The position numbers and the translations under genes are program-made. DNA of 41,530 nucleotides from Nitrospiraceae bacterium (GTDB lineage Bacteria > Nitrospirota > Thermodesulfovibrionia > Thermodesulfovibrionales > UBA1546). Positions 5,797 through 41,530 of this stretch are shown piece by piece; position 1 is the stretch's first letter; each line of letters starts with the position of its first letter. Location: contig QZJQ01000025.1 in the NCBI GenBank assembly GCA_003599795.1, positions 1 through 41,530 on the forward strand, written 5' to 3'. Below the pieces are notes generated by a model. It saw nothing but the letters and a program-made list of their open reading frames with translations. It was not told the origin of the DNA and made no database searches.

Positions 5797-5825
5797 GAAG
5801 TAAGAGGCGGAAGACCTCTTACTTC
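5797..5825 (-). terminator. Terminator or attenuator downstream of dsrC
   Basis: 11-bp perfect stem GAAGTAAGAGG / CCTCTTACTTC with a 7-nt loop. On the minus strand it is followed by TCTTTTTTATC. Confidence 0.85.
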
Positions 5826-5834
5826 CTTAATTCC

Positions 5835-6170
5835 TTATACGCAGCCAGTTGGCTTTGGAAGCCCTGCATACTTACATGCCTGTTTTGCAGGCCCGCCCGG
5901 ATAAAGTTCGTAAAGGTACTTTGTGTTGCCTTTTTCAGGCCCCATAGCCTTTCCGATCTCTTTAACGAGAATCTTTATCATCGGAGCAATCTGATACTGC
6001 TTGTAGTAGTCTCTCAGGAAGTTAATGACTTCCCAGTGAGCATCCGACAGTGTAATGCCGTCCTGCGACGCCAGATGCACTGCAAGCTCCTTAGTCCAGT
6101 CGTCAAGATTAATAATATATCCGTCATCATCAACCTCAATCTGTTTCCCCTGAAAATCCATCATTGACAT
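5835..6170 (-). CDS. dsrC: DsrC sulfur carrier protein; translation start trimmed from the ORF track to MSMMDFQGK
   Basis: C-terminal arm CKYAGLPKPTGCV carries both conserved cysteines. GGAGG RBS just upstream of the ATG at 6168-6170. Confidence 0.93.
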   Translation of the reverse strand: MSMMDFQGKQIEVDDDGYIINLDDWTKELAVHLASQDGITLSDAHWEVINFLRDYYKQYQIAPMIKILVKEIGKAMGPEKGNTKYLYELYPGGPAKQACKYAGLPKPTGCV

Positions 6171-10014: not shown

Positions 10015-11361
10015 GTGGCAAAACCCGTAATACTTATAGTAGACGATGAGAAAGGCATAAGAGAAAGCCTGTCAGGCATACTGGAGGATGAAGGCTATGA
10101 TATTTTGACTGCCGCTTCCGGGGAAGAAGCTGTAAAGATACTTAGAGATGCTTCTCCGGATCTTGTTTTTCTGGATATATGGCTTACCGGCATGGATGGA
10201 ATTAGAACACTGCAAGAGATAAAGGCTATGAAGCCCGATGTGCCGGTGATAATGATATCAGGGCACGGGAGCATTGAACTTGCAGTTAAAGCCACACAGA
10301 CCGGCGCATATGATTTTCTTGAGAAACCGCTTTCACTTGAGAGAGTGTTGCTTGTTTCAAAGAGAGCACTTGAAAAAAGGACTCTTGAAATAGAGAATAT
10401 TGCGCTTAGGGAAAACCTTACGAAAAAATGGAGGCTTGTGGGCGAATCACAGAAGATACGGGATTTGCGTGAGCAGATGGAAATGGCAGCCAAGAGCAAC
10501 AGCCGTGTTCTGATATTCGGAGAGAGCGGCACCGGCAAAGAGGTAGTTGCAAGGCTGCTGCATGAAAAAAGCCTGAGAGCAGAGAAGCCCTTTATTGAGG
10601 TAAATTGTGCGGCTATTCCGCAGGAACTCATAGAGAGCGAGCTTTTCGGTCATGAGAAGGGATCTTTCACAGGCGCCTTTGAGAAGAAAAACGGGAAATT
10701 TGAACTCGCTGACAGCGGGACGTTGTTTCTTGATGAAATAGGCGACATGTCACTCCAGACGCAGGCAAAGGTCCTGCGCGTTATTGAGACTCAGGAATTT
10801 CAGAGGGTAGGAGGAAACAAGAATATAAATGTTGATGTCAGGATAATTGCAGCCACCAATAAAGACCTCAGGGATGAAGTAAAGAAAGGCAGCTTCAGGG
10901 AAGACCTTTTTTTCAGGCTGAATGTTATACCTTTGGTTATTCCGCCTTTGAAGGAGAGAAAAGAGGATATTCCTGCCCTTGTTGAATACTTTCTTGATTC
11001 CCTCGCAGCAGAATACGGCAAGCCTCAGAGGAAGATACTGCCCGAGGCCGTAAGACACCTGCAATCATACGACTGGCCCGGGAATGTAAGGGAACTGAAG
11101 AATGTGATAGAGCGTCTTGTCATAATGACGACTTCAAATACGATAGACGCAAAAAATCTCTTAATTCCTATGGTTGAACACGGCGGCTCCGACTATTTCA
11201 AATACAAGACCCTCAAGGACGCAAGAGATGCCTTTGAAAAAGATTATATTGCAAAGAAACTTGAAGAAAATAACTGGAATATATCAAGGACAGCAGAGAT
11301 TCTGGATGTGGAAAGAAGCAATCTTCACAGAAAGATTAAGGCTTATGGAATAAAAGTCTAA
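10015..11361 (+). CDS. NtrX-like sigma54 response regulator (REC, AAA+, HTH_8)
   Basis: REC (VDDEKGIRESL), GESGTGKE Walker A, GAFTGA loop (GSFTGAFEKK), Fis-type HTH at C-terminus; GTG start with AGAAGGAGA RBS. Confidence 0.92.
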   Translation: MAKPVILIVDDEKGIRESLSGILEDEGYDILTAASGEEAVKILRDASPDLVFLDIWLTGMDGIRTLQEIKAMKPDVPVIMISGHGSIELAVKATQTGAYDFLEKPLSLERVLLVSKRALEKRTLEIENIALRENLTKKWRLVGESQKIRDLREQMEMAAKSNSRVLIFGESGTGKEVVARLLHEKSLRAEKPFIEVNCAAIPQELIESELFGHEKGSFTGAFEKKNGKFELADSGTLFLDEIGDMSLQTQAKVLRVIETQEFQRVGGNKNINVDVRIIAATNKDLRDEVKKGSFREDLFFRLNVIPLVIPPLKERKEDIPALVEYFLDSLAAEYGKPQRKILPEAVRHLQSYDWPGNVRELKNVIERLVIMTTSNTIDAKNLLIPMVEHGGSDYFKYKTLKDARDAFEKDYIAKKLEENNWNISRTAEILDVERSNLHRKIKAYGIKV

Positions 11362-36259: not shown

Positions 36260-37792
36260 ATGAAACGCGATTACGATAAGGCTCTTGAAATCACGGCGCT
36301 TTACGAGATAAGCAAACTTCTGGGCTCTTCACTTAACCTGAAATCAAACCTCAGAGGTGTGATGCGGGTTCTCTCAGAATATCTGGATATGAAAAGGGGA
36401 AATGTCGCGCTCAGAAGCAACAGTGAGGTGTCTATTGTCGCTGCTTACGGAATGACTGAGGAGGAAATAAAAAAAGGCAGGTACACGCTTGGTGAGGGCA
36501 TTATCGGCAGGGTTGCAAAGCTCGGCTCTCCCATAGTGATTCCAAGCATCGGGGAAGAGCCGTTATTTTTGAATAAGACCGGAGCAAGAAAAATTATCAG
36601 GAAGGAAAATATTGCATTCTTATGTGTGCCGATAAAATTTAAGAATGAAACGCTTGGCGTGCTGAGCGTTGACAGGCTTTTCGGCTCTAAGGTCATATCT
36701 TTTGAGGAAGACCTGAGGCTGTTGAAGATTATTGCATCGCTGATTGCCCAGACCGTAAAGCTTCATATGGAGATTGAAAAAGAGAGAGAGGCATTTCTTG
36801 AGGAAAAGGAAAATCTCAGGCAGCAGCTTAAGGGCAAATACAGGCTGGAAAACATCATAGGCCAGTCGGACAGGATGCAGGAGGTCTTCGGCGCTGTTCA
36901 CAGCGTAGCTCCTTCAAGGGCCAATGTGCTTTTACGCGGGGAAAGCGGAACAGGCAAAGAGCTTATTGCAAAGGCGATACATTATATGAGCCCGAGGGCA
37001 AAGGGGCCGTTTATAAAATTCAACTGTGCGTCCATTCCTGAGGGGCTTCTTGAGTCAGAACTCTTTGGCCACGAAAAGGGCGCATTTACCGGCGCAATGG
37101 CGATGAGAAAAGGCAGGTTTGAACTTGCCGACAACGGGACCATATTTCTTGATGAGATAGGCGACCTTCCTTTAGCGCTCCAGCCTAAGATACTCAGGGT
37201 CTTGCAGGAAAAGGAATTTGAAAGGGTAGGCGGCGAAAAAACAACAAAAGTTGACGTAAGGCTTATTGCCGCTACAAGCAGAAATCTTGAGAATCTCGTT
37301 TCTGAAGGAAAGTTCAGGGAGGATCTTTATTACAGGCTGAACGTCGTTCCGGTATTCCTGCCTCCGTTAAGGGAAAAGATTGAGGATATACCTTTGCTTG
37401 TGGAATACTTTCTGAAAAAATATAATGAAGAAAATCACAAGTCTGTGTCCATAGCGCCTGATGCTTTAAATACCCTTGTAAATTATGACTGGCCCGGCAA
37501 TGTAAGAGAGCTTGAGAATACAATAGAGAGACTGGTAGTTATGTCGTGTCAGAAAAATATATCCCCCTCTGATTTGCCTTTTAATATCCGAGACCATACA
37601 CTCAGGGCCAAGTACGCATCTCAGATAAAGGATGCACTTCCCTCAACAATTGAAGATATTGAAAAGGCCAAGATACTTGATGCGATTAAGAGGACGGGAG
37701 GGATTCAGGCGAAGGCGGCAAGGCTTCTCGGCATTACCCCCCGCCAGATAGGCTATAAGATTAAGAAGTACGACCTCTCTGTGCTGAAATAG
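36260..37792 (+). CDS. NifA-like sigma54-dependent activator (GAF, AAA+, Fis-type HTH)
   Basis: GAF region, [28 protein letters not shown]-terminal [27 protein letters not shown] resembling NifA HTH. Confidence 0.9.
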
Positions 37793-37851
37793 CAACTCGT
37801 CCGTATCACTGCACTGTCTTAATTCTGTTTATATTTTTTTGATACTAAGCC

Positions 37852-37882
37852 TACAAAATTGTACTATGAATACAATTTTGTA
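37852..37882 (+). promoter_or_regulatory. Paired palindromic operator/enhancer TACAAAATTGTA-N7-TACAATTTTGTA
   Basis: Two 12-mers that are exact reverse complements of each other; centre 62 nt upstream of the -24 GG at 37929. Confidence 0.7.
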
Positions 37883-37926
37883 TTAAACCCCAATCTATTA
37901 ATCCTTGTAAATCAATAGGTTATATT

Positions 37927-37944
37927 TTGGCATGATTCTGGCAA
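37927..37944 (+). promoter_or_regulatory. Sigma54 (-24/-12) promoter for porin-amt
   Basis: TTGGCATGATTCTGGCAA; GG (37929) to GC (37941) spacing of 12. Confidence 0.85.
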
Positions 37945-37975
37945 TAACTTCTAATAAAAATTAGGAGGTGTTGTG

Positions 37976-38881
37976 ATGAAAGGGTTAAGGATTTTAGTTT
38001 TAGCAGTGGCTTTGGTGTTTGGATTTTCCATCACCGGTGTTTATGCGGAGGAAAAGAAGGTGGACGGAAAGACAGTCCATGAAGTGCCTACAGAAAAGGG
38101 AGCAACTCTTGCTCATACGGTAAAGCCGGAAACGTCTCCTGTCTCGGGCAGCGCGTCAATTGGAGTTTTCAACCGGTATATATTCAGGGGGTATGAGATA
38201 AACTCGAACAGTGTTGTAGTGCAGCCCGCTGTAAGCGTTTCTTACAAAGGGTTCTCAGCATCGCTCTGGAGCAACATTGACAGCAATGTTAACGGCACAC
38301 AGAGCGTAACCAATGCAAACTATCTTTCAAATCAGGGCAAGAAAGACCTTAATGAAACTGATTTAACGCTGAGCTATACTTATGTCATAGACAAGCTTAG
38401 CCTTACCGGCGGCTATATTTACTACGGCACGGATTATACCGCTGAGACGGAAGAGGTTTTCGTGACAATGGCGTATGACACTCTGTTAAAGCCCACGCTA
38501 TCAGTCTATCGGGACATAAACGAGTATGGCGGCATCTATTTCAATCTCTCAATAGCGCATTCATTTCCTGTGTATAAGGAAATAACACTTGATCTCGGCG
38601 CTTCGGCAGGTTATTTTGCGGGCAGCGATGATTACTGGAAGACATACCAATCTTCCACAGGCGCATACACAGGCAAGAAATACAGCGGACTGCATGACGG
38701 CATGTTAAAGGCTGGCTTTACCATACCGATAGCAAAGAATGTTTCAGTTCAGCCGCTTGTGCAATACTGGTTCCCGCTGTCAAGCAATGCTAAAAAGAGC
38801 GTGAGCGGAAATTCATATAACCCGAATGGCAAGCTTGATGAAACCCTTGTGACAGGCGTAAGTCTGACGCTCAGTTTTTAA
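37976..38881 (+). CDS. TorF-like (Gcw_chp) outer-membrane porin family protein
   Basis: Signal peptide, VSGSASIGVFNRYIFRGYEINSNSVVVQPAVSVSYKGFSASLWSNID, beta-barrel-like alternation and C-terminal SLTLSF. Confidence 0.7.
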   Translation: MKGLRILVLAVALVFGFSITGVYAEEKKVDGKTVHEVPTEKGATLAHTVKPETSPVSGSASIGVFNRYIFRGYEINSNSVVVQPAVSVSYKGFSASLWSNIDSNVNGTQSVTNANYLSNQGKKDLNETDLTLSYTYVIDKLSLTGGYIYYGTDYTAETEEVFVTMAYDTLLKPTLSVYRDINEYGGIYFNLSIAHSFPVYKEITLDLGASAGYFAGSDDYWKTYQSSTGAYTGKKYSGLHDGMLKAGFTIPIAKNVSVQPLVQYWFPLSSNAKKSVSGNSYNPNGKLDETLVTGVSLTLSF

Positions 38882-38905: not shown

Positions 38906-40273
38906 ATGAAACGTTTAGTAAGTGTTCTGGTTTTAGTATGTGTTATGGCGTTAACAGGTTCTTTGCTTGCAGAGGAGGTAAAGAGTGAAGTCCCGGCTGC
39001 ACCGGTTGTTGCAGCCCAGCCTGTGCCGGCACCGGTTCCGGCGCCGCCAAAGGTTGATACCGGCGATACTGCATGGGTTTTGATTTCAACGGCGCTCGTT
39101 ATGCTCATGACTCCCGGCCTGGCTCTTTTTTACGGCGGTATGGTCAGGAGAAAAAATGTCCTCGGCACAATAATGCAGAGCTTTATATCTCTCGGGGTTA
39201 TAACCATATTGTGGGTGCTTTATGGCTACAGCCTTTCATTCGGGCCAGATAAATGGCACATAATAGGCGGCCTTGAATGGGTCGGGCTCAAAGGCGTAGG
39301 GCTTGATCCAAACCCTGACTATGCGGCAACTATACCGCATCAGGCATTCATGATATTTCAGATGATGTTTGCAGTGATTACGCCGGCGCTGATAACAGGC
39401 GCGTTTGCGGAGAGGTTTAAGTTTAAAGCATATCTTATCTTTCTTGTGCTGTGGGCAACTATTGTTTACTTCCCAATGGCGCACTGGGTATGGGGTGTCG
39501 GCGGATGGATGAGAGAGCTTGGCGCTCTTGATTTCGCAGGTGGCCTTGTTGTTCATATAAGTTCGGGAGTTTCAGCTCTGGCAGCGGCCATTGTTGTCGG
39601 AAGAAGAAGAGGGCACGGCATTGAAAACATGGCTCCTCATAATCTTACAATGACACTCCTCGGAGCTGCTCTACTCTGGTTCGGGTGGTTTGGTTTTAAC
39701 GGAGGAAGCGCTGTTGCATCCGGTTCGCTGGCAACATCAGCTTTTGTTGTAACACACATAGCAACCGCGGCAGCAGCGCTTTCATGGATGTTTGTTGAAT
39801 GGATGCACAGGAATAAACCGACTGTTTTGGGCGCGGCTTCAGGAGCAGTTGCAGGGCTTGTAGCGATAACACCCGCATCAGGTTTTGTAGGCCCGATGCC
39901 TGCAATTATCATAGGGCTTGTGGCGGGAGTATTATGCTATATGGCTGTTAATCTCAAGACCAAGCTTGGTTACGATGACTCTCTTGATGCAGTCGGAGTG
40001 CACGGCGTGGGCGGCACCTGGGGCGCGATAGCAACAGGTTTATTTGCGTCTAAATTGATAAACAGCGCAGGCAACGACGGGCTTTTTTACGGGAATGCAA
40101 CGCTTTTATTGAATCAGATAATAAGCGTCGGAGCTGCATGGATATATTCCTTTGTGGTTACTCTCGTAATTTTAAAGGTTATTGACTGGACTGTCGGCTT
40201 GCGTGTAAGTGAAGAAAATGAATCAGACGGTCTTGATCTCAGCCAGCATGGCGAGAGCGGATATACATTATAA
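38906..40273 (+). CDS. amt: Ammonium transporter with signal peptide and Pro/Ala-rich N-terminal linker
   Basis: DTAWVLISTALVMLMTPGLALFYGGMVRRKNVLGTIMQSF, VHISSGVSALAAAIVVGRRRG, GVHGVGGTWGAI. Confidence 0.95.
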   Translation: MKRLVSVLVLVCVMALTGSLLAEEVKSEVPAAPVVAAQPVPAPVPAPPKVDTGDTAWVLISTALVMLMTPGLALFYGGMVRRKNVLGTIMQSFISLGVITILWVLYGYSLSFGPDKWHIIGGLEWVGLKGVGLDPNPDYAATIPHQAFMIFQMMFAVITPALITGAFAERFKFKAYLIFLVLWATIVYFPMAHWVWGVGGWMRELGALDFAGGLVVHISSGVSALAAAIVVGRRRGHGIENMAPHNLTMTLLGAALLWFGWFGFNGGSAVASGSLATSAFVVTHIATAAAALSWMFVEWMHRNKPTVLGAASGAVAGLVAITPASGFVGPMPAIIIGLVAGVLCYMAVNLKTKLGYDDSLDAVGVHGVGGTWGAIATGLFASKLINSAGNDGLFYGNATLLLNQIISVGAAWIYSFVVTLVILKVIDWTVGLRVSEENESDGLDLSQHGESGYTL

Positions 40274-40276
40274 AAA

Positions 40277-40696
<420 letters not shown>

Positions 40697-40731: not shown

Positions 40732-40762
40732 AGGCTTGCCCGCTTTTTAGACGGGCAAGCCT
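40732..40762 (+). terminator. Stem-loop terminator downstream of glnK
   Basis: 11-bp perfect stem AGGCTTGCCCG / CGGGCAAGCCT, loop CTTTTTAGA. Confidence 0.65.
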
Positions 40763-40787
40763 CTAAAATTGAGTAGAAATTATTTCT

Positions 40788-40816
40788 TACAAAAATGTAG
40801 TCAGTACAAAATAGTA
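40788..40816 (+). promoter_or_regulatory. Two further TACA-N4-TGTA-like sites upstream of the second amt
   Basis: TACAAAAATGTA (40788-40799) and TACAAAATAGTA (40805-40816). Confidence 0.5.
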
Positions 40817-40862
40817 GGAAATCTGCAACTTATTGCGAACAAAGAGTAAAAGGCTGCTTAAA

Positions 40863-40898
40863 GCCATGGAATCCTACAAAATTGTAGGATTCTATGGC
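40863..40898 (+). promoter_or_regulatory. Long palindrome containing TACAAAATTGTA upstream of the second amt
   Basis: GCCATGGAATCCTACAAAATTGTAGGATTCTATGGC, 18-bp arms with one G.T position; centre 60.5 nt upstream of the -24 GG. Confidence 0.7.
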
Positions 40899-40938
40899 TA
40901 TTCATGCTTTTAAAATACTTTAAAAATCAAATAGTTAT

Positions 40939-40955
40939 CTGGCACACTTTTAGCT
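40939..40955 (+). promoter_or_regulatory. Sigma54 (-24/-12) promoter for the second amt
   Basis: CTGGCACACTTTTAGCT; GG (40941) to GC (40953) spacing of 12. Confidence 0.8.
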
Positions 40956-40994: not shown

Positions 40995-41530
40995 ATGAAA
41001 AAGGGGATAACTTTAGCTATTTGCGCAATCTGTTTCTTCTTTATCACCACAACCAATGTTTTAGCTCAGGAATCGGGAAAGATTGACGCAGGAGATACCG
41101 CCTTTGTTCTTCTTTCAGCGTCGCTTGTAATGCTCATGACTCCGGGGCTTGCGCTTTTTTACGGCGGTATGGTAAGGCGTAAAAATGTCCTCGGAACAAT
41201 AATGCAAAGTTTTGTCGCAATCGCTATAGTTAGCGTCCAGTGGATCCTCTTCGGATACAGCCTCTCTTTTGGCCCTGACATCGGCGGGTTTATCGGAAGC
41301 CTTGATTGGGCTGGTTTAAATGGCGTGGGCAATACTCCCAATCCGGACTATGCTGCAACAATCCCGCATATCGCGTTCATGATATATCAGGCTATGTTTG
41401 CAGTGATAACGCCTGCATTGATTACCGGCGCTTTTGCCGAACGGATGAAATTTTCAGCTTTCTTTGTATTTACAATCCTGTGGTCAACAATTGTCTATGA
41501 CCCTGTTGCGCACTGGGTGTGGGGCACAGG
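40995..41530 (+). CDS. amt: Second ammonium transporter, truncated by the window end
   Basis: AAGGAG RBS; MKKGITLAICAICFFFITTTNVLAQESGKIDAGDTAFVLLSASLVMLMTPGLALFYGGMVRRKNVLG..., open to the last base. Confidence 0.93.
   Translation, partial: MKKGITLAICAICFFFITTTNVLAQESGKIDAGDTAFVLLSASLVMLMTPGLALFYGGMVRRKNVLGTIMQSFVAIAIVSVQWILFGYSLSFGPDIGGFIGSLDWAGLNGVGNTPNPDYAATIPHIAFMIYQAMFAVITPALITGAFAERMKFSAFFVFTILWSTIVYDPVAHWVWGT

Follow-up and report, generated by a model that had tools for sequence, protein, structure and literature searches.

The window analysed here, 41,530 nt of a contig from a Nitrospiraceae bacterium, an uncultured Thermodesulfovibrionales-like member of the Nitrospirota, carries two ammonium transporter genes downstream of two sigma-54-type promoters (P1 and P2), and copies of one 12-mer, TACAAAATTGTA, lie upstream of both. 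This raises the question of which protein reads the 12-mer and whether a single regulator serves the two promoters, as a first-pass annotation of the locus had proposed. The features are listed in Table 1. The host assembly amounts to 1.4 Mb and is 75% complete; no match to rpoN was obtained in this partial assembly, and rpoN was found in 7/7 genus-mates searched.

Table 1. Coordinates of the features discussed, in window positions except for the two stand-alone HTH genes, which are given in the coordinates of their own loci.
Feature	Position	Strand	Remarks
NifA-type sigma-54 activator gene	36260..37792	+	GAF, AAA+ with GESGTGKE and GAFTGA, HTH_8 (Pfam); adjoins P1 upstream
Operator P1a, TACAAAATTGTA	37852..37863	+	centre 71.5 bp before -24 GG
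Operator P1b, TACAAAATTGTA	37871..37882	-	centre 52.5 bp before -24 GG
P1 sigma-54-type -24/-12 element, TGGCATGATTCTGGCA	37928..37943	+	relatives have comparable elements at similar spacing
gcw-like outer-membrane-type protein gene	37973..38881	+	weak match to Gcw_chp; first gene 3' of P1
amt1, first ammonium transporter gene	38906..40273	+	
PII protein gene, glnB type	40358..40696	+	
Distal operator P2c, TACAAAAATGTA	40788..40799	+	147.5 bp before -24 GG; relatives' site at 146-153
Distal operator P2b, TACAAAATAGTA	40805..40816	+	130.5 bp before -24 GG; relatives' site at 129-136
Inverted repeat around P2a	40862..40899	.	outer arms lineage-specific
Proximal operator P2a, TACAAAATTGTA	40875..40886	+	60.5 bp before -24 GG
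P2 sigma-54-type -24/-12 element, TGGCACACTTTTAGCT	40940..40955	+	conserved in relatives
amt2, second ammonium transporter gene	40995..41528	+	truncated by contig end
Stand-alone HTH gene, locus L010	1617-1805	+	
Stand-alone HTH gene, locus L293	about 5800-5973	-	

P1 and P2 follow two different, related site plans and not the one geometry first attributed to them, the agreement being only approximate: P1, with its -24 GG at 37929-37930, has two sites (52.5/71.5 bp) that stand 19 bp apart with a midpoint 62 bp before the GG, whereas P2 combines a site at 60.5 bp with a distal pair at 130.5/147.5 bp. The distance originally given for P2 was reproduced, the palindrome centre at 40880.5 and the first G of the -24 GG of CTGGCACACTTTTAGCT at 40941 being 60.5 nt apart. 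The two upstream copies described as degenerate are present at 40788 and 40805, each with one mismatch to TACAAAATTGTA, but they are real parts of the promoter, since distal sites occur at fixed positions in relatives, and TACAAAAATGTA (40788-40799) is a perfect TACA-N4-TGTA, degenerate only in comparison with the 12-mer. Both TGGCACACTTTTAGCT and TGGCATGATTCTGGCA fit the sigma-54 promoter pattern GG-N10-GC with TGGCAY context. The P1 operator pair is retained in the gcw promoters of the same genus, and in relatives the two sites of the gcw promoter lie at about 54 and 72 bp. The UAS of Proteobacterial NifA has the consensus TGT-N10-ACA. This arrangement is absent at both promoters, the inner half-sites of P1 forming TGT-N9-ACA and P2a offering only ACA-N4-TGT.

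Exact TACAAAATTGTA occurs three times in the whole 1.4 Mb assembly, with all copies within the two amt-locus promoters, against an expectation of 0.37 per genome and about 0.0001 in 400 bp; the reversed-motif control gave no exact match over the same 1.4 Mb. The 12-mer was found 195 times in 149 genomes of the order, often in pairs 17-20 bp apart, and its reversed control 65 times. Matches with up to two mismatches within the window were unimpressive (11 versus 5.6 expected), and the relaxed pattern TACANNNNTGTA alone showed no enrichment in this genome (20 palindromic places versus 18 in the control), indicating that the signal is carried by the A/T-rich centre together with the promoter context.

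The motif was present upstream of 30/30 amt2 orthologues chosen by protein similarity alone. When 40 further orthologues were added for a survey of spacing, most amt2 promoters of families f1, f4, f12 and f13 showed a proximal site 60-64 bp before the -24 GG (median 63) and distal sites at 129-136 and 146-153 bp. In 32 aligned proximal sites, prefiltered to two or fewer mismatches to the 12-mer and to 58-66 bp from the GG, ACA....TGT was invariant (32/32), an invariance that is partly built in because sites were required to lie within two mismatches of the 12-mer; the central four bases were A/T in 31/32, and a preceding C and a following G were frequent. The unfiltered survey gave the same spacing values as the 58-66 bp filtered set. 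In family f10 (L094, L096, L099 and L109) the distal pair lay about 100 bp from the proximal site and not 70, or roughly three turns of the helix further. In families f2, f3 and f6 amt2 often occurred without the motif, and in some such genomes glnB-amt operons carried it. Conservation upstream of orthologous amt genes thus extends to the ACA-N4-TGT core but not to the sequence of the 36-nt palindrome in which that core was first noticed. A lack of such conservation had been named as a refuting condition, and the core passed this check. The occurrence in 30/30 orthologues at a spacing of 60-64 bp in several families strongly supports the proposal of one regulator acting on both promoters via one operator. 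The TACA-AAAT-TGTA element before amt2 is most likely a landing site, conserved order-wide, for a sigma-54 activator, with the NifA-type protein encoded in the neighbourhood as the candidate.

In relatives the same operator precedes other nitrogen genes. Specifically, among nifH promoters chosen by protein, ACAA-N2-TTGT ranked first (13/30 versus 0.5) and TTGT-N10-ACAA third (7/30 versus 0.25), and two operator copies 20 bp apart contain TTGT-N10-ACAA, that is, the NifA-type spacing. Other genes 3' of the motif, named by eye from their translations, include glnA, a nifB-like gene and genes for an NrtA-like binding protein, NrfH/NrfA-like cytochromes and a DUF294/CBS-like protein. The recurrence of the operator before nifH, glnA-like, glnB-amt and nifB-like genes makes it likely that these belong to one regulon for general nitrogen control. 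In two loci (L014 and L015, site 1501; genomes G073 and G064) the operator and a sigma-54-like site stand before a cNMP/CBS/DUF294 nucleotidyltransferase-like gene; G073 has a REC-type EBP gene just upstream.

The protein encoded at 36260-37792 has the domain order GAF-AAA+-HTH_8, as in NifA. It scored 596.7 bits against NCBIfam nifA TIGR01817, which passes the cut-off of 528.85, and fell below the ntrC cut-off (360 versus 558.6); the sigma-54 contact motif GAFTGA and a Walker A motif can both be read in the translation, and the best full-length solved relative was 9qq6, a Nif-specific regulatory protein. Relatives of this protein outside the order were found in Omnitrophota, Spirochaetes, Margulisbacteria/WOR-1, Desulfobacterota and others. 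All 4-mer half-sites at gaps of 0-14 were tried on the 250 bp in front of 56 nifA-like genes of other phyla, and TACA-N4-TGTA emerged as the top palindrome (15/56 versus 0.1 expected), with ACA-W4-TGT in 21/56 and none in the inverted control or inside genes. Many of these sites lay within about 80 bp of the gene start (starts being approximate, as projected from alignments) and no sigma-54 element followed them in these phyla, an arrangement more in keeping with self-control or self-repression than with another EBP activating the gene. In the near relatives within Nitrospirota the motif was rare upstream of nifA itself (1/21), so that a NifA self-regulatory site is generally absent there.

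Taken with the target genes, the make-up of this protein argues with good probability that it reads TACA-W4-TGTA as an enhancer-type site in a general nitrogen regulon. For the signal, the binding of NifA, the looping and the direction of control, we infer the following order of events: upon nitrogen limitation the NifA-type protein would occupy the two sites of P1 and the three of P2, the bound activator would assemble into a hexamer, and the hexamer would, by looping, reach the sigma-54 RNA polymerase poised at the -24/-12 elements, which would drive expression of gcw-amt1 (probably also glnB) and of amt2.

A second protein with a related DNA-binding domain has to be considered. Many relatives have, between the operator pair and gcw, a gene for a stand-alone NifA-type HTH_8 protein of about 60-75 aa. 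The gene was found in most genomes of the order; the window genome and G046 lack it. The protein is close to the NifA HTH, not to the HTHs of REC-type proteins, and its best PDB match was 2m8g, which we take to be a NifA-like homologue from Aquifex. At a guess, it may compete for NifA sites.

Co-occurrence of the motif with these two proteins was compared for amt2 promoters of families f1, f4 and f11-f13, where genomes with NifA or the stand-alone HTH carried the motif in about 39/39 cases (two or fewer mismatches, one marginal) versus 2/5 for genomes with neither, a difference (Fisher p about 0.0008) that is exploratory, the families having been picked post hoc, the genomes being related and the assemblies gapped. 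Simple presence or absence gives no clean proof of NifA as the reader, as G055 and G064, both 99% complete, keep the motif with neither a detectable NifA nor the stand-alone HTH.

These two genomes are among the points in favour of the main rival, in which a REC-AAA-HTH_8 response regulator of the NtrC/NtrX/GnfM type would read the operator and control amt, glnA, glnB, nifA and nifH, as NtrC does in Proteobacteria. Four of these genes (amt, glnA, glnB and nifA) are classical NtrC targets (see also PMC2607301), most other sigma-54 activators of this assembly have REC domains, and an NtrX-like REC-AAA-HTH regulator is encoded in the window itself (10015-11361, + strand), although this protein, the single REC-type EBP scored, remained below the cut-offs for NtrX (530.3 versus 600) and ntrC (442.7 versus 558.6). 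A REC-type reader nevertheless appears unlikely, given that the site close before nifA in other phyla, with no sigma-54 element after it, is ill-suited to NtrC activation and that the stand-alone HTH encoded after the operator resembles the NifA HTH and not a REC-type one. Considerably less probable is that the stand-alone HTH is itself the main reader in relatives, as a repressor or competitor, and that the motif is kept for this protein. Its gene directly follows operator pairs in many genomes, and G049, G065, G083 and G144 have the HTH protein and keep the motif with no NifA orthologue detected; on the other side, the operators are kept in the window genome and G046, where the protein is missing, the enhancer-like spacing to the -24/-12 elements is maintained, and a protein without an AAA+ domain cannot itself activate sigma-54. 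Least probable by far, and largely refuted by the footprint, is that the palindrome of P2 acts as a hairpin in a transcript (for example at the glnB 3' end) or is a mobile palindromic repeat, with the motif incidental, for, although long arms form a stem in about 9/30 relatives, their sequences differ (L208-L237, L299-L338), the invariant core keeps its distance to the -24 GG with or without a stem, the same core stands before other nitrogen genes with reversed-motif controls empty or low, and the long repeat has no other copy through its core in this assembly.

The arms of the long repeat, 40862-40879 and 40882-40899, are 18 nt each and 94% complementary across a 2-nt gap, and their pairing exceeds that of cross-genome shuffles (0/2000 reached the observed value). 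As a functional unit the long palindrome was rejected, because the arms are lineage-specific and only the core is conserved; one possibility is that the stem acts as a hairpin at the 3' end of the transcript of glnB, the gene upstream. At 40739-40768, 3' of glnB, a further inverted repeat rich in GC, GGCTTGCCCG ... CGGGCAAGCC, was seen by eye and could be a glnB terminator.

The history of the locus can be followed in a genome of the same genus, G026 (L293), in which the order is nifA-nifH-nifD-nifK-nifEN-nifX-PII-PII-radical SAM (nifB-like)-ThiF-stand-alone HTH-gcw-amt1-glnB-amt2. There nifEN is fused, the nif genes lie exactly between nifA and the stand-alone HTH-gcw-amt segment (L293 5700-16000), and the cluster is preceded by genes that match tpiA and secG of the window in size. 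In the window gcw directly follows nifA, the nif cluster being absent at 37793-37972, and nifH was not found in this 75% complete assembly. The presence of the cluster between nifA and gcw in G026 and its absence here point to loss of nif with ammonium control by NifA kept; this genome has probably lost both nif and the small HTH gene while keeping NifA and the ammonium operators. In genus g14 the nifH matches (L253, L258 and L268) contain one in-frame TAA, a lesion or an assembly error.

Proteobacterial NtrC binds a GCAC-N5-type dyad. The Proteobacterial NtrC regulon (glnA, glnK-amtB, nifA) is similar in target genes and sigma-54 logic, whereas the candidate here is a one-component protein with GAF and not REC, and the operator differs. 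With Proteobacterial NifA and its UAS the locus shares a NifA-family activator, sigma-54 promoters and sites upstream of nifH; in contrast, the unit here is ACA-W4-TGT, which stands singly or, more usually, with a second copy 17-20 bp away, with amt, glnB and glnA-like genes as the main targets, including in genomes where nifH was not found. A variant of the NifA UAS, TGT-N10-TCA, is printed in PMC3916325. The nearest described system in the papers searched is the predicted nitrogen regulon of DVU1949 of Desulfovibrio vulgaris (PMC4641369), a predicted one-component EBP that is self-regulated and whose operons include DVU1231-DVU1233 under "nitrogen metabolism and transport"; the likeness lies in the one-component EBP, the self-regulation and the targets. 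The Aquifex NifA-like homologues (Studholme 2000, as cited in PMC12316311) are likewise NifA-like sigma-54 activators outside Proteobacteria. No description of the operator was found in a literature search that left subscription papers mostly outside, so that its novelty is provisional, and searches for the exact 12-mer and for GnfM returned nothing relevant.

NifA is usually regarded as a switch for nif genes specifically. Throughout this order the uptake and assimilation of ammonium appear to be run by a NifA-type protein through a defined operator of non-canonical form, including in genomes in which nif was not found. The operator probably marks one switch common to the uptake of ammonium, the synthesis of glutamine and the fixation of nitrogen in these little-studied bacteria, and it offers a clue to the relation between TGT-N10-ACA and ACA-N4-TGT dyads that occur in pairs. 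The control of nitrogen metabolism in uncultured Nitrospirota becomes directly testable in this way, and the regulon can be looked for in other phyla with a defined pattern. A wider reading, put forward tentatively and with more doubt than the assignment at this locus, is that in Nitrospirota and several other phyla (Margulisbacteria/WOR-1, Spirochaetota, Desulfobacterota) NifA-type proteins may have a general role in nitrogen regulation, in which they would bind TACA-W4-TGTA, control amt/glnA/glnB together with nif, limit their own synthesis and outlast the loss of nif, joined in Nitrospirota by a stand-alone HTH that feeds back on the same operators.
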